Part shown: piece by piece, positions 12,562 to 20,546 of the stretch
Layout of the letters: every line of letters starts with the position of its first letter
How positions within the stretch are numbered: position 1 is the first letter of the stretch
Source of the DNA: Pseudomonas antarctica
GTDB lineage: Bacteria > Pseudomonadota > Gammaproteobacteria > Pseudomonadales > Pseudomonadaceae
Direction of reading: 5' to 3'
Assembly (NCBI RefSeq): GCF_001647715.1
Contig: NZ_CP015600.1
Location: forward strand, 5,208,001 to 5,272,000
Length of the DNA stretch: 64,000 nt
Notes under the pieces: generated by a model
What the model was told of the DNA's origin: nothing
Databases searched by the model: none
What the model saw: only the letters and a program-made list of their open reading frames with translations
Program-made: the position numbers and the translations under genes

Positions 12562-12789
12562 TCAACTCTGCGGTCTCATCCCTTGGGACATCCCGAACAT
12601 GAATAACAGCAAATCATGATCAGGCTTGACCGCCACACTGGCCTTGGCAACACGTGGTAACAGACATTGCCCGCTACCCTGCACCGCGCTCAGCACTTGT
12701 GTGCGAGGTTGTTCCCACGCAGCCAGCGCCAGGGCTGCAATGCCCAACGCGCCGACCAGGAACAAACCTCGTGCTATTTCTAGCTTCAT
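12562..12789 (-). CDS. Small membrane-anchored protein coupled to inaA
   Basis: A 75-residue protein with an N-terminal hydrophobic segment (GLFLVGALGIAALALAAW, residues about 8-25), then a short tail with a single Cys and the end GMSQGMRPQS. No domain recognised. Its ATG overlaps the inaA stop as ATGA, so it is translated by coupling and is the last gene of the warA-inaA transcript. In P. aeruginosa a small hypothetical gene (PA4377, from memory) holds the same place. A role in the inner membrane with LPS modification is inferred from position alone. Confidence 0.7.
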   Translation of the reverse strand: MKLEIARGLFLVGALGIAALALAAWEQPRTQVLSAVQGSGQCLLPRVAKASVAVKPDHDLLLFMFGMSQGMRPQS

Positions 12790-13505
12790 CTGGTTAAACC
12801 CTTGATAGCGCTGCCAAACGCCGTCTCGTAAAAGTAGCTGAGTTTTTCCCAGTCGGTACTGCTCCACGACGAATGGCGCCGCAGTTGCAGCATGTCATGG
12901 GAAGCCGCCCGATAAGCGGTCAAACGCTGGCGGCACTTTTCGAAATCCAGCAGCGCCACTTCCACATTGGCCGAGTCGCCCTCGCCAGTCACCCGTACAA
13001 AGATGTGTTTGATGTACAGGCAACCATGCTGCCAGCGGCCCTTGTGCATGCGTGCCAGGGTGTAGGCCAACTCCTTGAGCACGCGTTCGTGAACCAACTC
13101 GCCGTACTGCTCGCGGCCACCGGCGGCGTACCAGTTTTCGATTTCATCGAATCCGTCCAATGACGCGGTCACCAACAGCGCTTTCCACTGGTGCTCCGGA
13201 TCACGGCGCGCGCCGCAGAACACCAGTTCCGGTACGCGTACATCCAAGGAGCGCAGGCCCTTCAGGGCATCGCGCTCGCGCAACACGGTCGGACGTCCAA
13301 ACGGGTGGAGCCAACTGCGGTAGATGTGCCCGGTCTGGCGCTTGCTGTAGAGCAAGCGGCCATTGGGGCTGATCACCCGTTGCACACCACTTTCCCCCCC
13401 ACGTCGACGGTTGGGCTCCTCGACCCACTCGCCCCGTTGGCGCCAGAAATAATCAAATCGCTCTTCGGGAGCTACGTGACTGCCTGATACGCACTCAACT
13501 GCCAT
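12786..13505 (-). CDS. inaA: InaA/WapQ-type lipopolysaccharide kinase-like protein
   Basis: The 239-residue protein belongs to the Kdo/WaaP-InaA kinase family with a protein-kinase-like fold. The catalytic loop reads RWQHGCLYIKHIFV near residue 155 and the metal-binding motif is LLDFEK near residue 185. The family phosphorylates sugars of the LPS inner core; in P. fluorescens WCS365 the gene below colRS was named wapQ. The start at 13505 has AGAGGTAACAGG upstream and lies 5 bases after the warA stop; the longer frame upstream runs through warA. It is ATGA-coupled to the following small gene. Activity as a true kinase rather than a stress protein is inferred. Confidence 0.85.
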   Translation of the reverse strand: MAVECVSGSHVAPEERFDYFWRQRGEWVEEPNRRRGGESGVQRVISPNGRLLYSKRQTGHIYRSWLHPFGRPTVLRERDALKGLRSLDVRVPELVFCGARRDPEHQWKALLVTASLDGFDEIENWYAAGGREQYGELVHERVLKELAYTLARMHKGRWQHGCLYIKHIFVRVTGEGDSANVEVALLDFEKCRQRLTAYRAASHDMLQLRRHSSWSSTDWEKLSYFYETAFGSAIKGLTR

Positions 13506-13509
13506 CCTG

Positions 13510-14190
13510 TTACCTCTTACGCAATACATATACTCGCCACATGGCGTAGAGCGGCATGAAGTCCAGGGACTCCTGAACCCGGAAACCGGCCTGCTCAAAC
13601 TCTGCCTCAACAGTAGCAGCCGGTAACACAAACCGGTTTTGATAACCTTCCTGCTCACCTTTCTCGCGACGTTTCGCTTCGAGGCGCTTGCGTTTCCAGG
13701 CCTTGAAATTGCCATCTACCCACAGCGAAACAATCACGCTGTCGCGGGTAACTCGTTGAAATTCCTTCAGTATCGCTAGCCTGTGTTCCGCATCACCAAT
13801 GTGGTGCAGCAGGCGCATACAGAAAATGCTGTCGACCGAGTTATCCGGTAAATCAATATCGAATGCAGACGTCTGCAAAGGACGTACCCGTTTCACCACT
13901 TCAGCCGGTTGGGCAATGGTGGCGACGTTCAACATCGACGCCGAATTGTCGGCCCCGATAATCACCCGGTTGGGCTTTTCCGCCAGCAACGACCAGAAAC
14001 GTCCAGCCCCACAGGGCAGGTCCAACACCAAGCCTGGCTCGCCGGCCATGGCCAACGCGCCGCGCGCCAATTGCTCGTCGCGTTTGTGGGACAACCGGCG
14101 AGCCAGATTGTCCTGATGTTTGAGCAAATATTCTTGCGCGTGCTGATCGTCGTACTTTTCAGAAAAATCGAGCTTGATCGGGGTAGACAT
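13510..14190 (-). CDS. warA: WarA-like SAM-dependent methyltransferase
   Basis: The 226-residue class I methyltransferase has SAM motif I GLVLDLPCGAGRFW near residue 53, motif II in IGADNSASML, and motif IV region IFCMRLLHHIGD near residue 120. It is the orthologue by position of the methyltransferase below colRS (orf222 in P. fluorescens WCS365, WarA/PA4379 in P. aeruginosa), which affects LPS O-antigen modification. The start at 14190 has GGAGAA 9 bases upstream. It leads the warA-inaA-small-protein operon and is separated from colS by 190 bases carrying a ColR-like box. The substrate is not readable from sequence. Confidence 0.86.
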   Translation of the reverse strand: MSTPIKLDFSEKYDDQHAQEYLLKHQDNLARRLSHKRDEQLARGALAMAGEPGLVLDLPCGAGRFWSLLAEKPNRVIIGADNSASMLNVATIAQPAEVVKRVRPLQTSAFDIDLPDNSVDSIFCMRLLHHIGDAEHRLAILKEFQRVTRDSVIVSLWVDGNFKAWKRKRLEAKRREKGEQEGYQNRFVLPAATVEAEFEQAGFRVQESLDFMPLYAMWRVYVLRKR

Positions 14191-14258
14191 CAACGGTTCT
14201 CCAGTTGCTGATGCCTACAACCTTAAGCAGCGAAGTGTGACTAACAGGTCAACCCGTT

Positions 14259-14274
14259 GTGAAAAACTTGTCCT
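14259..14274 (-). promoter_or_regulatory. Putative ColR-binding site upstream of warA
   Basis: The minus strand reads AGGACAAGTTTTTCAC. The 3' half TTTTTCAC is the fixed part of the ColR consensus as I recall it from P. putida (YYNASNNYTTTTTCAC). The last base lies exactly 69 nt upstream of the warA start codon. The 13-mer ACAAGTTTTTCAC is identical to the one before the sulfatase gene at 16451-16466. Confidence 0.6.
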
Positions 14275-14349
14275 GTCCAGCCCCATACATTTCAAGACTT
14301 TACAGACACAATCAGTGGCATGGGGCCATCTTCGCCGAAAAGCGGGGTA

Positions 14350-14371
14350 CCTGCCGCAGGATAGCGGCAGG
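14350..14371 (-). terminator. Hairpin after colS
   Basis: CCTGCCGC / GCGGCAGG stem with a 6-base loop, 9 bases past the colS stop; on the minus strand a short GCTTTT follows after some bases. It is probably a weak terminator separating colRS from warA. Confidence 0.45.
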
Positions 14372-14379
14372 GAGGGTGC

Positions 14380-15660
14380 TCAGGGTTTGACCTGGCTCAA
14401 CTGCACATGAAAGCGGCAGCCATTGGGCTCCATGGTGCTCAGGCTGACGCTCCAGCCCTGGCTCTCGCAGATCCGTTGCACCAACGACAAGCCTAAACCG
14501 AGGCCTTCACCGCGCTTTTCGCTGCCGCGCACAAAGGGCTCGAACATCGCTTCACGCTTGTCTTCGGGAATCCCGACGCCGGAGTCTTCCACAACAAAGC
14601 CGCTGGGTTCGAGTGTCAGCCGGATAAAGCCCCGCTCGGTGTAGTGCAGCGCGTTGCGCAGCAAGTTGCCCATCACTGCATGCAAGAAGGTGGTGTTGTA
14701 GCGGGTATCCAGGGGATTGCCCGGGAGGTAGATCAATTCAAGGCCTTTGTGCTCGATGGGCTCGCGCCAGATGCCGAGCAAATCTTCGGCCACCTGGGTC
14801 AGGTTGACCTGGGGCGACATGGCCGCATCATCGTGTTTGGCACGGGCCAGCATCAGGAAGGTTTGCACCAGCTCGCGCATTTCTTCGCAGGCCCGGGCAA
14901 TGCGCAGCACCTGATTGCGGCCGCGCTGATCAATGGCGGGGTTTTCCAGCAGCAGTTCACAGGAGCTGGCCAACACCATCAGGGGGGTGCGCAACTCGTG
15001 GCTGACATCGCTGGTAAACAATTGCTCACGAGACAATGCCTGCCGCAACCGGCCCAGGGTGGCGTCGAAGGCCACGGCCAGCTCACCGACTTCATCGGCC
15101 GCGTAATCCGGCGCCAGGGGCGGCGCCAGACCCAGCAACTGGTCACGATGACGAACCTGGCGCGCCAGACGCACCACGGGCGCCATCACCTTGCGGGCCA
15201 GCACCCAACCGAGGAACACCGCCAGCGCCAGGCTGAGTACAAAACCCACCAGCACTACGGCAAACAGTACGCGCTCGCGCTCTTCGAAATCGCTTTGGTC
15301 TTGCAGCAGGACGTAGCGCCGGCCATCGACCACTTCGACCATGGCGTGGTACGACAGCGACTCGCGAAACACCTCATGAAAACCCGGTTCCAGATGGCGC
15401 AAATCCTTGGGCAGTTCGAAATCCCCGGGCCCGCCGCTGAAATAGAACAGTTGATCCGGCTCTGGGCGATGGCTCCAGTCCTCGACACTGTCCATCAGCA
15501 ACAGGCGCTGCAGGTCGCCGCCCAGGCCGGCCGAAATCAGTTTTTCTTCCACCAGGTGCACGGTCGCAACGATGCCCATGGCGAACGCCCCCGCCACCAG
15601 TGCGCTCATCAAGGCAAAGGCGATGATGATCCGCTGGGCGAGGCTTTGCTTAAACTCCAT
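14380..15660 (-). CDS. colS: Sensor histidine kinase ColS
   Basis: The 426-residue kinase has TM1 (residues about 10-32), a short periplasmic domain of about 100 residues, TM2 (about 133-153), HAMP, a HisKA H-box SDVSHELRTPL near residue 235 and an ATPase domain with G boxes VEDSGVGIPE and GEGLGLGLSL. Residues implicated in metal sensing in Pseudomonas ColS are present: H35, E38, E96, H105 and the ExxE pair E126/E129. It phosphorylates ColR in response to excess zinc, manganese or ferric iron. The start at 15660 overlaps the colR stop by 11 bases, so the pair is translationally coupled; the upstream start at 15690 would lie inside colR. Confidence 0.93.
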   Translation of the reverse strand: MEFKQSLAQRIIIAFALMSALVAGAFAMGIVATVHLVEEKLISAGLGGDLQRLLLMDSVEDWSHRPEPDQLFYFSGGPGDFELPKDLRHLEPGFHEVFRESLSYHAMVEVVDGRRYVLLQDQSDFEERERVLFAVVLVGFVLSLALAVFLGWVLARKVMAPVVRLARQVRHRDQLLGLAPPLAPDYAADEVGELAVAFDATLGRLRQALSREQLFTSDVSHELRTPLMVLASSCELLLENPAIDQRGRNQVLRIARACEEMRELVQTFLMLARAKHDDAAMSPQVNLTQVAEDLLGIWREPIEHKGLELIYLPGNPLDTRYNTTFLHAVMGNLLRNALHYTERGFIRLTLEPSGFVVEDSGVGIPEDKREAMFEPFVRGSEKRGEGLGLGLSLVQRICESQGWSVSLSTMEPNGCRFHVQLSQVKP

Positions 15661-16333
15661 CACGCCCCTCGGCCAGGCGATAACCCACACCGTGCACGGT
15701 TTGCAGCAACGGCTTGGCGAAGGGCTTATCGATCACTTGGCGCAATTGGTGAACGTGGCTGCGCAGGCTGTCGCTGTCCGGGCAGTCGTCGCCCCACAGG
15801 GCTTCTTCGAGAATTTCTCGGCGCAACACGTGCGGGCTCTTTTGCATCAGCACCGCGAGCAATTTCAGGCCCACCGGGTTGAGCTTGAGCAGGCGCCCTT
15901 CGCGGGTCACTTCCAGGGTATCAAGATCGTAATGCAGGTCGGCCACTTGCAGCGCGCGACGGCCGCCCCCTTGGGCACGGCGCAGAACCGCTTCGATGCG
16001 CGCGGCCAATTCCGACAGGGCGAACGGTTTGAGCAGGTAATCATCGGCCCCGGATTTGAAGCCCTGCAGCCGGTCATCCAACTGGTCGCGCGCGGTGAGC
16101 ATAATTACCGGCGTATCGCGACGAGCGTCTTCACGCAGGCGTTTGCACAAGGTGTAGCCATCGATGCCAGGCAGCATGATGTCGAGCACGATCAGGTCGT
16201 AATGCTCGGTGGCGGCCAGGTGCAAGCCCGACAAACCGTCCTGCGCACAGTCTACGGTATAGCCTTTTAGCCCCAGGTAATCGGCCAGATTGGCCAGAAT
16301 ATCGCGGTTGTCTTCAACCAATAAAATTCGCAT
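15650..16333 (-). CDS. colR: Response regulator ColR
   Basis: The 227-residue OmpR-type regulator has receiver acidic residues in LLVEDNRD, the phosphoacceptor Asp in LIVLDIMLPG (D51), Thr/Lys switch positions in MLTARD and LLKPF, and a C-terminal winged helix ending QTVHGVGYRLAEG. Its identity as ColR rests on the Pseudomonas-typical sequence, the partner ColS with the ExxE motif, and the warA/inaA genes downstream. It controls LPS and outer-membrane remodelling genes. The ATG has a weak ribosome site (GGAGACACTGCCC). It is divergent from the sulfatase gene across a 200-bp region containing a ColR-like box. Confidence 0.93.
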   Translation of the reverse strand: MRILLVEDNRDILANLADYLGLKGYTVDCAQDGLSGLHLAATEHYDLIVLDIMLPGIDGYTLCKRLREDARRDTPVIMLTARDQLDDRLQGFKSGADDYLLKPFALSELAARIEAVLRRAQGGGRRALQVADLHYDLDTLEVTREGRLLKLNPVGLKLLAVLMQKSPHVLRREILEEALWGDDCPDSDSLRSHVHQLRQVIDKPFAKPLLQTVHGVGYRLAEGRDGV

Positions 16334-16450
16334 GGGCAGTGTCTCCGTACGCGGTAACGGCCGTGTTGGCTCGCGCAGCTTAAGGCCAAGCGAGGCTCAG
16401 GGATAGAGCTGGACGCCACGTCGATATAGGTTTTCAACCAATTATACAAA

Positions 16451-16466
16451 CCAACAAGTTTTTCAC
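16451..16466 (+). promoter_or_regulatory. Putative ColR-binding site upstream of the LTA-synthase-like gene
   Basis: CCAACAAGTTTTTCAC matches the remembered ColR consensus YYNASNNYTTTTTCAC at 15 of 16 positions (G at position 8). It ends 69 nt before the ATG at 16535, the same distance as the warA box to warA. It also lies about 118 nt upstream of colR on the opposite strand, so it might feed back on colR. Confidence 0.65.
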
Positions 16467-16534
16467 TATAGCTTCACAAACTGGCTACAGTGACAGGCCG
16501 AATATCGGCGTCCATTGATATAAGGAATATGGAC

Positions 16535-18484
16535 ATGGGGTTTTTCAACACCGCGCCGATGCGCTTTCTGCTGCTCGTAACCGGCGCATGGCTGGTTATT
16601 TTCCTGCTTACCCGCACTGTGCTGCTGATCACGCATTTGGATGAAGTCGGTGGCAACCTGCTGCCCGTGTTTGGCGTTGGCTTGCTGTATGACCTGGCTT
16701 TCCTGGCCTATGCCGCTTTGCCGCTGGGGCTGTATCTGCTGCTCTGCCCACCCGCACTGTGGCGCCGCCGTGGCCATCGCTGGTTCCTGCAGGCGGTGCT
16801 GACCGTCAGCCTGTTCGCCATGTTGTTTACGTCGGTGGCCGAGTGGCTGTTCTGGGATGAATTCGGCGTGCGCTTCAACTTTATCGCCGTCGATTACCTG
16901 GTGTACTCCAACGAGGTGATGAACAACCTGCTGGAATCCTACCCGATCGGCAAGCTGCTCAGCCTGTTGGCGATGCTCGCGATTGTGCTGAGCCTGGCCT
17001 TGCGCAAGCCGTTCAACAGCGCCATGAACGCGCCCCTGCCGCCCCTGCGTGGTCGCTTGTTGAATGCCCTGTGCCTGTTGGTAGTCGCCGGTCTCTTCAT
17101 GCAATTGATCAGTCAGGACAGCCCACGTTCCTCGGGTGGCAACGCTTACAAGAATGAATTGGCGAGCAACGGCCCGTATCAGTTTTTTGCCGCGTTCCGC
17201 AACAACGAGCTGGATTACACACAGTTCTATAAAAGCCTGCCCACCGAGGTTGTCGCCAAGCAATTGCGTGCTGAACTCAGCGAGCCCAATGCGCGCTTCA
17301 TCGGCACCGACCCGCTGGACATCCGCCGTGCAATCACCAACCCCGGCACATTGCGCAAACCCAACATCGTGCTGGTGACCATCGAAAGCTTCAGCGCCAA
17401 ATACATGGGCAGCAATGGCGACGACCGCAACCTCACACCCAACCTCGACGCCTTGCGTAAACAAAGCCTGTATTTCAATAACTTCTATGCCACCGGCACC
17501 CGCACAGACCGTGGCCTGGAGGCGATCACCCTGGCGATTCCTCCCACGCCCGGCCGTTCAATCGTCAAGCGCATCGGCCGTGAAAGCGGTTTCGCCAGCC
17601 TAGGCCAACAACTCGGCGCCATCGGTTACGACAGTGTCTTTGTCTACGGCGGACGCGGTTACTTCGACAACATGAACGCGTTTTTCAGCGGCAACGGTTA
17701 TCGGGTCGTGGACCAGAGCAGCGTGGCGGAATCGGAAATCTCGTTCAAAAACGCCTGGGGCATGGCCGACGAAGACCTCTACCGGCAAACCCTGAAACTG
17801 GCCGATGCCGACTACGCCAAGCAGCAGCCCTTCCTGCTGCAACTGATGACCACGTCCAACCATCGCCCTTACACCTATCCGGAAGGTCGCATCGATATCA
17901 AATCCGGCAACGGCCGTGACGGCGCGGTGAAATACACCGACCACGCCATCGGCGAGTTCCTCGACGCGGCACGCCAGAAGCCGTGGTTCGATAACACGAT
18001 TTTCGTGTTCGTCGCAGACCACACCGCCGGCAGCGCAGGCAAGGAAGACTTGCCTATCGCCAACTACCAGATCCCGCTGTTTATCTATGCACCCAAGCTG
18101 ATCGAGGCCCGGGAAACCGCGCAACTCGCCAGCCAGATCGACCTGGCACCTACGTTGCTGGGTTTGATCAACCTGAGCTACGAATCCACCTTCTTCGGCC
18201 GCAACCTGTTGCAAGACAGCCCGCTGCCGCCGCGCGTAGTGGTCGGCAACTACCAGCACCTGGGGTTGTTTGATGGCAAGGACCTGGCGATCCTCAGCCC
18301 ACGCCAAGGCCTGCGTCGCCACGATCAGGCCTTGGGCGAGAGCCAGGAGTTACGCGTGGGCACGGATGACCCGTTGATCCAACGCGCAATTACTTACTAT
18401 CAGGCCGCCAGTTATGGGTTCACACAGCAATTATTGAGCTGGAAAGCGCCCAAGGACGCGGCGCCTGCAATCAGCGTGCGCTGA
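16535..18484 (+). CDS. LTA-synthase-like sulfatase/phosphotransferase of the inner membrane
   Basis: The 649-residue protein has five N-terminal membrane segments (to about residue 190) and a periplasmic alkaline-phosphatase-fold domain of the LTA synthase/phosphoethanolamine transferase family. Visible metal and nucleophile positions are VTIESFSAKYMG, the Thr in ATGTRTDRGLEA, and FVADHTAG near residue 495. Such enzymes move phosphoglycerol or phosphoethanolamine from phospholipids to glycans or lipid A. The start at 16535 lies 8 bases after AAGGA; the ATG at 16529 is too close and the GTG at 16490 lacks a ribosome site. A ColR-like box 69 nt upstream suggests control by envelope metal stress. 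Confidence 0.86.
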   Translation: MGFFNTAPMRFLLLVTGAWLVIFLLTRTVLLITHLDEVGGNLLPVFGVGLLYDLAFLAYAALPLGLYLLLCPPALWRRRGHRWFLQAVLTVSLFAMLFTSVAEWLFWDEFGVRFNFIAVDYLVYSNEVMNNLLESYPIGKLLSLLAMLAIVLSLALRKPFNSAMNAPLPPLRGRLLNALCLLVVAGLFMQLISQDSPRSSGGNAYKNELASNGPYQFFAAFRNNELDYTQFYKSLPTEVVAKQLRAELSEPNARFIGTDPLDIRRAITNPGTLRKPNIVLVTIESFSAKYMGSNGDDRNLTPNLDALRKQSLYFNNFYATGTRTDRGLEAITLAIPPTPGRSIVKRIGRESGFASLGQQLGAIGYDSVFVYGGRGYFDNMNAFFSGNGYRVVDQSSVAESEISFKNAWGMADEDLYRQTLKLADADYAKQQPFLLQLMTTSNHRPYTYPEGRIDIKSGNGRDGAVKYTDHAIGEFLDAARQKPWFDNTIFVFVADHTAGSAGKEDLPIANYQIPLFIYAPKLIEARETAQLASQIDLAPTLLGLINLSYESTFFGRNLLQDSPLPPRVVVGNYQHLGLFDGKDLAILSPRQGLRRHDQALGESQELRVGTDDPLIQRAITYYQAASYGFTQQLLSWKAPKDAAPAISVR

Positions 18485-18495
18485 CGCCCTCGTGA

Positions 18496-18520
18496 GCCCT
18501 TGCCTCCCCATGGCAAGGGC
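18496..18520 (+). other. Inverted repeat between the sulfatase gene and the next regulator gene
   Basis: GCCCTTGCC / GGCAAGGGC with a 6-7 base loop, 12 bases after the stop. No T run follows, so it could be an mRNA-stabilising hairpin or a weak terminator. Confidence 0.4.
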
Positions 18521-18559
18521 GTAACACTTGCGCCCATTCTCCGGCGATGGCGCCCTCTC

Positions 18560-19258
18560 ATGTCCGACACCCTGCTGCTGATTGAAGACGACCGCCCCTT
18601 GGCCGCACTGACGGCCGAATTCCTGCGTGCCGAAGGGTTTACCGTGGCGGTTGAGCACCGTGGCGATCGCGCCGCACAGCGCATTCTTGACGAACAGCCG
18701 GCGCTGTTGATCCTCGATGTCATGTTGCCGGGCATCGACGGGTTTACCCTGTGCCGACAGATTCGCGATCAGTACCCCGGGCTGATCCTGATGATGACCG
18801 CGCTGGATGAAAACGCCGAGCAACTGACCGGCTTCAACGTCGGCGCGGATGACTATGTCGTCAAGCCTGTCGACCCGCTGCTGTTGCTGGCCCGAATTCG
18901 CTCGTTGCTGCGTCGCCATCCTCAAGCCCCGCGTGCTTATTACCAGTGGGGCGCCTTTCGGCTGGACCTGAACAGCCATTTCGCCTGGCTCGACGAGACC
19001 CCTTTACAGTTCTCGGTTGCCGAGTTCGAATTACTGGCGATTTTCGCGCGCCATTGCGGGGTGTTGCTGACGCGGGAAAAACTCCTGCAGAGCCTGCGCG
19101 GCCTGGAATACGACGGGCTCAACCGTTCCATCGATATGCGTGTGTCGCGCTTGCGTAAAAAGCTGATGAGCCTGGAATGCCCGGTGACCATCCAGACCAT
19201 CACCGCCCAAGGCTACCTGTTCGTGGAAAGCCCGCAGGAGGCCCGACATGTTGACTAA
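18560..19258 (+). CDS. RstA-like OmpR-family response regulator
   Basis: The 232-residue regulator has a receiver domain (IEDDRP, phosphoacceptor in LILDVMLPGIDG at about D52, MMTALD, VVKPVD) and an OmpR winged helix with TREKLLQSLRGLEYDGLNRSID, a form typical of the RstA branch. The start at 18560 gives MSDTLLLIED. Its last 11 bases overlap the kinase gene, and the ribosome site for that gene (GCAGGAGG) lies inside this one. It follows the sulfatase gene by 75 bases in the same direction. The signal is unknown; the neighbours point to envelope stress. Confidence 0.87.
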   Translation: MSDTLLLIEDDRPLAALTAEFLRAEGFTVAVEHRGDRAAQRILDEQPALLILDVMLPGIDGFTLCRQIRDQYPGLILMMTALDENAEQLTGFNVGADDYVVKPVDPLLLLARIRSLLRRHPQAPRAYYQWGAFRLDLNSHFAWLDETPLQFSVAEFELLAIFARHCGVLLTREKLLQSLRGLEYDGLNRSIDMRVSRLRKKLMSLECPVTIQTITAQGYLFVESPQEARHVD

Positions 19259-20546
19259 GGTGCGGCCCTGGATGGTCGCCGTAGCAGGCGCGGGCTGGGC
19301 GAGTTTGACGTTTTATCTGCTGTGGCTATGCGCCAACGCCTCGGTGTTTGTCGGCGAAGACAGCTTTTTGCGCCTGATGGCCGGGCCGGCCTACCTGGTA
19401 GCCGAACAGCTCAGAGCCTTGCCGGCCGACCAACGTGAAGCACGCATGGAAATCCTGCGCGCGCACTTCCAGTACCCGGTAAATCTGATCACGCTGGACG
19501 AGGTCGAGTTGCCGCCGGAAGCGTTGGTCATGCTGGAACATAAACAACCGGCACTGAGCAGCGACGAAGACATCAGCTACTTTCCGCTGGATGACGATAC
19601 GGTGATCCAATTCGGCCCTATGTGGGGCAGTGCCGAGGTCAAGGATCTGCTGAAATTCCCGGTTTACTGGATCACCGCCGGTGTAGCAGGCCTGCCGGTG
19701 CTACTGCTACTCTGGATCGGTTTACGCCTGCACCGCCGTCGCACCACTGACCTGAACACCCTCAAGACCTGCCTTGGCACACTGGCACGCACCCCGAATG
19801 TAATGTTGCCTGCCATGGGCAAGGAATGGACGCCGTTGCTGATGACGTTGCAGCAACACGCGCGGGATATCAGCGCCATGAACGAACGCCACCGCGAAGT
19901 CTCCCAGGCCGTGTCCCACGAACTGCGTACGCCATTGGCACGCATGCGTTTTGCCTTGACGCTTCTGGGTAAAAGCGAAGACCCGCTCACCCGTACACGC
20001 CTGCAAGAACGCTTGCTCACCGATGTCGAAGAGCTCGAAGCCCTGGTTCGCGCCAGCCTCGCCTTTGCGAGACTGGCGGGCGCACCGACCGACCTGCAGC
20101 ATGAGCCGATCAACCTGCGAGAATGGCTGCACCAGGAGTTTGCCTTGCTCGACGGGCACCACCGCCAGTTGAGCCTGGAAACCGAGCCAGCCCACCTTGA
20201 ACTGATCGGTGACCGTGCCCTGCTGCACCTGATCGTGCGCAACCTGTTGAGCAACGCCATCACCTACGCACGCGATCAAGTGTGCGTCAGTGCCACTTAC
20301 CACGGCCAACATCACCTGGTGCTGCATGTAGACGATGATGGCCCCGGCGTATTGGCGGAGAACCGCGACAAGATCTTCGAGCCCTTTGTGCGGCTTGCCC
20401 TGGGCGGCGATGAGCCTACTGGCTCGGGCCTTGGCCTGGCACTGGCCAAGCGCGCAACCCAGTGGCATCACGGTGAATTGTCGGTATCGCGCAGCCCTTT
20501 GGGCGGCGCACGCCTGAGCCTTATTCTGCCACTAAGGCCGATGTAA
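19248..20546 (+). CDS. RstB-like sensor histidine kinase
   Basis: The 432-residue kinase has TM1 at residues about 8-30, a periplasmic region of about 110 residues, TM2 (about 140-160), HAMP-like linker, H-box QAVSHELRTPLARM near residue 222 and ATPase motifs VRNLLSNAITYA, DDDGPGV and GSGLGLALAK. Organisation and pairing resemble RstB. The periplasmic part is acidic (PLDDDTV, SSDEDIS), as in cation-sensing PhoQ-like sensors, but this does not identify the ligand. It is coupled to the preceding regulator gene by an 11-base overlap. Confidence 0.87.
   Translation: MLTKVRPWMVAVAGAGWASLTFYLLWLCANASVFVGEDSFLRLMAGPAYLVAEQLRALPADQREARMEILRAHFQYPVNLITLDEVELPPEALVMLEHKQPALSSDEDISYFPLDDDTVIQFGPMWGSAEVKDLLKFPVYWITAGVAGLPVLLLLWIGLRLHRRRTTDLNTLKTCLGTLARTPNVMLPAMGKEWTPLLMTLQQHARDISAMNERHREVSQAVSHELRTPLARMRFALTLLGKSEDPLTRTRLQERLLTDVEELEALVRASLAFARLAGAPTDLQHEPINLREWLHQEFALLDGHHRQLSLETEPAHLELIGDRALLHLIVRNLLSNAITYARDQVCVSATYHGQHHLVLHVDDDGPGVLAENRDKIFEPFVRLALGGDEPTGSGLGLALAKRATQWHHGELSVSRSPLGGARLSLILPLRPM

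Follow-up and report, generated by a model that had tools for sequence, protein, structure and literature searches.

Predicted ColR boxes on both sides of colRS connect warA with a divergent LTA-synthase-like sulfatase gene in Pseudomonas antarctica

Does the response regulator ColR control the gene that diverges from its own, and what might that gene contribute? The question arises in a 64-kb window of Pseudomonas antarctica (the whole stretch of DNA analysed here, part of a 6.6-Mb genome designated G000). In this window inaA, warA, colS and colR lie in that order on the minus strand; on the plus strand follow a divergent gene for a sulfatase-fold protein resembling lipoteichoic acid (LTA) synthase, an RstA-like gene and an RstB-like gene. 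In P. putida, ColR was footprinted at PP0903 (warA) and in the interval between colR and the divergent gene PP0900, which encodes a PAP2 protein (Kivistik 2009, PMC2689224). According to the lacZ data in that report, ColR activates PP0900 and PP0903, and colR itself gives no clear response. For P. fluorescens Pf0-1 the same report predicts boxes at PP0903 and at 'colR/PP0900'.

An earlier note on this DNA had proposed that ColR co-regulates warA and the sulfatase gene, on the strength of a 13-mer that stands at equal distances from the two start codons. Comparison among relatives supports the co-regulation at both promoters; the warA half was already published, and neither the identity of the 13-mers nor their equal spacing is what carries the argument. 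We consider it likely that both sites are ColR boxes and that ColR activates the sulfatase gene as well as warA-inaA, which would make the sulfatase gene a new and well-supported predicted member of the ColR regulon. Two things underlie this reading of the sulfatase box: it occupies the slot in which ColR binds between PP0900 and colR in P. putida, and it is retained together with a sulfatase or PAP2 gene.

The sulfatase box, the 16-mer CCAACAAGTTTTTCAC (16451..16466, plus strand), agrees with the published consensus YYNASNNYTTTTTSAC (PMC2689224) at 15 of 16 positions, as had been claimed, and is kept in relatives; its sole mismatch is a G at position 8. The warA box, AGGACAAGTTTTTCAC (14259..14274, minus strand), is weaker: 13 positions agree, the mismatches are A1, G2 and G8, and the score is 10.4 on a ColR position weight matrix (PWM) built from seven published sites.

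How closely is the box tied to the gene beside it? Our survey covered 149 genomes of the genus. A sulfatase match at E <= 1e-40 was obtained in 143 (in many cases to a paralogue of about 30% identity), and 136 encode warA. Besides the genome of the window, 135 matched warA; the genus sample takes the listed best warA place from 127 of these and adds the window, for 128 rows in all; it excludes eight genomes with weak warA matches and the genomes without warA. ColR was matched in 125 rows, and the three others were dropped. Four regions were taken shorter, among them L214, which is classed as too short though its genome has the sulfatase there. Divergent genes were recognised solely through sulfatase, PAP2 and RstA queries. 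A second, named sample of 80 loci is biased toward near relatives and partly overlaps the first.

In the genus sample the divergent slot holds PAP2 in 59 rows, sulfatase and PAP2 in 34, sulfatase in 14, sulfatase and rstA in 3 (the window included), rstA in 1 and none of these in 12, with 2 too short to tell. A box scoring at least 14 is found in 57/59, 32/34, 14/14, 2/3, 0/1, 2/12 and 1/2 of these, respectively. Thus 105 of the 110 loci with a sulfatase and/or PAP2 gene carry the box, against 2 of the 12 with neither; letter-shuffled 200-nt intergenic regions reach a score of 14 in 0.2% of cases. The named sample gives 56 of 60 against 6 of 14, the remainder being three loci with rstA alone (two with the box), one that is too short and two without colRS. 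rstA is the first recognised gene past the box position in L092, L103 and L113, and the box scores at least 14 in two of them. On the other side of colRS, the region upstream of warA reaches at least 10 in 113 of 128 loci and at least 14 in 86. Agreement with the consensus and conservation among orthologues are therefore found at both promoters. Boxes of at least 14 also stand beside colR in L146, L152, L166, L133, L106 and L095, where no sulfatase, PAP2 or rstA gene was recognised.

The observations from which the proposal started are accurate. The 13-mer ACAAGTTTTTCAC lies at 14259-14271 (minus strand) and at 16454-16466 (plus strand); these are its only exact copies in the window and in the genome, 2.2 kb apart and flanking colRS. 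From 14259 to the warA ATG at 14190, and from 16466 to the sulfatase ATG at 16535, the distance is 69 nt in each case. The latter ATG has AAGGA at the usual distance, and an alternative in-frame ATG at 16529 would shorten the interval to 63 nt. The 8-mer TTTTTCAC does occur inside groL and has six occurrences in the window. The significance attached to identity and spacing did not hold up. The 13-mer is rare, yet by itself it is not enriched: with up to one mismatch it has three genome matches, against seven for the reversed control. Only 10 of 125 genomes carry the same 13-mer at both promoters, with letters that vary, and the distance from box to ATG ranges from 69 to 74 nt at 38 sulfatase loci and from 64 to 80 nt at 104 of 113 warA loci. 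Being neither enriched nor constant among relatives, the exact match and the equal 69 nt were dropped as evidence in themselves; they are coincidences of this locus, superimposed on a motif that the two promoters genuinely share. A duplicated promoter as the origin of the 13-mer was rejected, since the letters differ in most genomes.

What raises the shared motif above chance is a third half-site. Both boxes extend to a TTSAC exactly 11 bp past the second half-site, giving TTCAC-N6-TTCAC at the sulfatase gene (third half-site TTCAC, 16473..16477, plus strand) and TTCAC-N6-TTGAC at warA (TTGAC, 14248..14252, minus strand). The full pattern ASNNNTTTTTSACNNNNNNTTSAC has four exact matches in the genome, two of which are the warA and sulfatase boxes; with up to one mismatch there are ten, against one for the reversed control. 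In the genus sample, the third half-site stands at offset 6 in 106 of 108 boxes before divergent genes (33 of 108 at the next best offset, 14), and a random 5-mer from the same intergenic regions fits it in 3.7% of cases. Before warA it lies within one mismatch of TTSAC at 104 of 113 loci; a slightly different scan put it at 102 of 112 loci and gave 47 of the 112 for offset 11. Its columns are 94% conserved, against a flank mean of 47%; the 99% conservation of the box core is partly a selection effect, boxes having been picked by PWM. Of the seven sequences in Table 1 of the P. putida study (PMC2689224), three contain a third half-site on our reading: PP0900 (TTCAC), PP2561 (TTGAC) and PP0903 (ATGAC). 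The two remaining exact matches in our genome, at G000:C1:3898340 (L303) and G000:C2:129589 (L306), have no clear downstream target gene.

If the box belongs to the sulfatase gene, does it travel with it? Twenty further sulfatase regions were inspected upstream, five of them without a readable start. Three adjoin a colRS-type locus, and each has a full box (L301, L325 and L327). Among the 12 with a readable start that lie away from such a locus, two (in genomes G118 and G013) carry the full box 70-71 nt upstream of the sulfatase gene, complete with a perfect third half-site, and colS is on another contig; these two may represent one event rather than two. The box can therefore move along with the sulfatase gene, if not always.

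Two of the regions hold additional copies. The genome of L301 (G004) has a normal colRS-sulfatase locus; its second copy, which is divergent (ColR 77%, sulfatase 67%, PAP2 56%) and may have been acquired, brings a strong box and third half-site of its own. A second island at L298:108-4808 encodes paralogues of ColR (59%), warA (68%) and the sulfatase (77%) and a PAP2-like frame (motifs read by eye), next to frames that by eye resemble a glycosyltransferase and an epimerase. No ColR box was found by PWM upstream of its sulfatase gene. In L189 (G032), the colR-linked sulfatase gene has one in-frame TAG and may be a pseudogene.

Several results weigh against ColR control of the sulfatase gene. 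At up to one mismatch the consensus YYNASNNYTTTTTSAC has 224 matches in this genome and its reversed control 225, so the 16-mer alone defines no regulon here. In the named loci with neither gene, the box scores at least 14 in 6 of 14 and at least 10 in 12 of 14; it must either persist after the genes are lost or do something else. Conversely, the box has weakened below 14 in 3 of 51 sulfatase-bearing loci of the genus sample and 4 of 37 of the named sample, and 10 of the 12 displaced sulfatase genes lack the box with three half-sites, two of these ten still reaching 14 without the third. A colRS tree of 123 rows, on which the 12 loci with neither gene require 12 changes (at least eight on starred branches), speaks for the link between box and genes, but the test is borderline by itself: across independent pairs the box changes in the same direction in about five of eight and never in the opposite one (median p 0.06). 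ColR is divergent (78-84%) in three of these 12 rows, which are perhaps not genuine orthologues. Many relatives have a terminator-like hairpin between the sulfatase and PAP2 genes, which is why co-transcription of the two stays a conjecture. Finally, in an RNA-seq study zinc changed only 67 genes in the P. fluorescens type strain ATCC 13525, and dgkA, warA and warB are not among the shared genes that the text of the report names for it (PMC7744410). This last result lowered our estimate for ColR activation by a small step, to the level that we have called likely.

The alternative that survives best is that the box between colR and the sulfatase gene serves colR itself, with the sulfatase gene as a bystander. 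In near relatives the box does lie about 117 nt from colR regardless of the divergent gene, and it persists in several loci in which none was recognised. Across the wider genus, however, this spacing ranges from 15 to 235 nt. In the published data, colR of P. putida responds neither to ColR nor to metals, despite its box (PMC2689224, PMC4074579); in the genus sample the box is mostly lost along with the divergent genes (2 of 12 retained), and two displaced sulfatase genes carry it. We rejected autoregulation as the main role of the box and regard it as improbable. Slightly less probable still is that ColR binds and represses the sulfatase gene, or binds without effect on it. ColR does repress oprQ and PP0737 in P. 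putida (PMC2689224, PMC4074579), but PP0900 and PP0903, whose published sequences have the same layout of three half-sites, are activated by it. Activation by ColR remains the reading that we prefer.

Least likely of all is that the 13-mer is a chance T-rich match or the site of another regulator of the OmpR family, such as the neighbouring RstA-like protein. OmpR-family sites resemble one another, the warA box is a modest match to the consensus, neither 13-mer nor 16-mer alone is enriched over reversed controls, and the RstA-like gene lies 3' of the sulfatase gene. Against this very unlikely alternative, most relatives without rstAB at this place keep the box, and the corresponding places in P. 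putida are footprinted ColR sites (PMC2689224).

Responses to zinc and to ColR are on record for targets in other strains. Zinc induces PP0900, PP0903 and PP1636 in P. putida; a single PP0900 knockout left zinc and iron tolerance unchanged, whereas a multiple knockout altered it (Ainsaar 2014, PMC4074579). P. aeruginosa PAO1 and P. putida KT2440 alike respond to zinc with raised dgkA, warA and warB (PMC7744410), and PP_0904 and dgkA1 are raised by zinc in another report (PMC6066579). In strain WCS365, warA, warB and pap2_2 are cited as ColR-dependent (PMC8805031). PP1636, the dgkA promoter, was shifted by ColR and responded to it but gave no footprint, and perfect sites were predicted 5' of dgkA orthologues (PMC2689224). 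Our genome has one: the perfect-consensus 16-mer TTCACGCTTTTTTGAC (G000:C1:1412515-1412530, L001) lies about 48 nt before the ATG of dgkA, a gene recognised through a Pfam match of its first 55 residues. About 60 nt after another perfect-consensus 16-mer (G000:C1:1781284-1781299, L002) comes a frame that looks, by eye, like a second methyltransferase of the warA kind. A literature search found no paper linking this sulfatase to ColR; most subscription journals lay outside its coverage.

How did different genes come to share one slot? On the colRS tree the presence of the sulfatase gene requires 21 changes and that of PAP2 15, so loss, regain or recombination is frequent, and any ancestral layout is a reconstruction. 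An order of colR, box, sulfatase and PAP2, with rstAB in one subclade (L097, L104 and L117), could account for the layouts through partial losses. PP0900 of P. putida would then be a retained PAP2 gene, and the lineage of the window would have retained the sulfatase gene, with an RstAB-like system at the place of PAP2. A PAP2 query from a relative found no match in the window's genome; the search had no positive control, and an empty answer of this kind proves nothing by itself. Pairwise alignments of five pairs to locate the excision of the sulfatase gene gave inconsistent gaps.

What, then, might the sulfatase do? The gene (16535..18484, plus strand) is not a PP0900 orthologue and encodes no PAP2 domain; its product is a PF00884 protein (E 1.3e-51), predicted to be an LTA-synthase/OpgB-like membrane transferase. 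The sulfatase domain follows five N-terminal transmembrane segments called by hydropathy, an architecture that places it in the LtaS/OpgB-like superfamily. Its nearest solved relative is VP1736 (3lxq, E 4.4e-70, an entry deposited as uncharacterized); LtaP and LtaS come next. All 91 aligned rows, among which some genomes count twice, have E284, T324, D495 and H496; by alignment to known structures and analogy with LtaS, we take T324 to be the nucleophile and the other three to be metal ligands. An arginine of LtaP, presumably substrate-binding as in LtaS, aligns to methionine here. All nine listed NCBIfam models fall far below their curated cut-offs (OpgB 72 bits against 572, LtaS 68 against 970), so the protein is an equivalog of neither. 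An AlphaFold model from 24 close sequences is too poor to bear out the bundle of five helices (predicted local distance difference test 51, predicted template modelling score 0.43). LtaS- and OpgB-type enzymes take the headgroup of a phospholipid and leave diacylglycerol. The sulfatase is thus most likely a periplasmic lipid-headgroup transferase, moving phosphoglycerol or phosphoethanolamine onto an envelope acceptor. The PAP2 protein of relatives hits two models below their cut-offs: 'PAP2 family lipid A phosphatase' with 98 bits against 275, and 'PAP2_near_MCR1' with 72 against 475. Together, the sulfatase fold, the dgkA box, this PAP2 protein and the L298 island point to modification of envelope lipids or lipopolysaccharide (LPS).

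A mechanism can be proposed, with ColR binding and the metal response carried over from the corresponding P. putida sites. ColS would sense excess zinc or iron and phosphorylate ColR; phosphorylated ColR would bind the TTSAC half-sites in their 11-bp register, 5' of warA-inaA and of the divergent sulfatase gene, and activate both. The sulfatase gene, first of a two-gene slot (sulfatase-PAP2) beside colR, would supply an enzyme that moves a phospholipid headgroup to an envelope acceptor and releases diacylglycerol, which DgkA, under its own perfect-consensus box, would recycle. On this reading the known target PP0900 becomes half of a swappable two-gene slot whose other half is an unstudied envelope transferase. 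The regulon would gain a plain chemical logic for metal stress: headgroup transfer, recycling of diacylglycerol, and the methylation and phosphorylation of LPS. It is a tentative and rather doubtful extension that ColR commands a full headgroup-transfer module (LtaS-like transferase, DgkA recycling and, in relatives, a PAP2 protein resembling lipid A phosphatase) and, in the lineage of the window, a cascade from ColR to RstAB, in which a divergent unit running into the RstAB-like system would let the metal sensor ColS drive a second signalling system. Three half-sites rather than two would make a sharper box for regulon prediction, and natural losses of the sulfatase or PAP2 gene offer ready-made comparisons.

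The remaining features of the locus are as follows. warA (13510..14190, minus strand) encodes a class I S-adenosylmethionine-dependent methyltransferase (PF13649/PF08241) and is the counterpart of PP0903 by place; usage in PMC8805031 supports the name. inaA/warB (12786..13502, minus strand) encodes a Kdo/WaaP-type LPS kinase (PF06293; best NCBIfam model InaA, 171 bits against a cut-off of 235). colS (14380..15660, minus strand; HAMP, HisKA and HATPase_c) encodes the sensor kinase and colR (15650..16333, minus strand; PF00072 and PF00486) the OmpR-family regulator, and relatives share the synteny colR-colS-warA-inaA. Directly 3' of the sulfatase gene lie the genes for the RstA-like regulator (18560..19258, plus strand; 200 bits against 330 for the RstA model) and the RstB-like kinase (19248..20546, plus strand; 184 against 478). 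A generic promoter and terminator scan called no promoter at either box and no intrinsic terminator between the sulfatase and RstA-like genes; a stable 9-bp hairpin without a T-run (z -2.8) lies at this junction (18482-18562). A tentative -10 element, TACAGT, stands at 16486..16491 (plus strand), where the consensus by majority across 39 sulfatase loci contains TACAGTG; no obvious -10 element is common to warA and the sulfatase gene, and such assignments are tentative.

Compared with the P. putida ColR regulon (PMC2689224), the locus has the same regulator, the same two places around colRS and the same box core; the difference is the divergent gene, an LTA-synthase-like sulfatase here and the PAP2 gene PP0900 there. 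With VP1736, LtaS/LtaP and OpgB the protein shares a membrane-anchored domain of the alkaline phosphatase superfamily and the conserved Glu, Thr and Asp-His, while its low NCBIfam scores and its methionine in place of the LtaP arginine set it apart from LtaS and OpgB. The pairs mcr-1-hpap2 and mcr-3-dgkA (PMC7559476) resemble the present system in that a headgroup transferase stands beside PAP2 (in relatives, where PAP2 adjoins the sulfatase gene) and has DgkA as a partner. They differ in that the window holds no EptA/MCR-type transferase beside a PAP2 gene: the transferase here belongs to the LtaS/OpgB branch, is chromosomal and carries a predicted ColR box, and no PAP2 gene was found in its genome.

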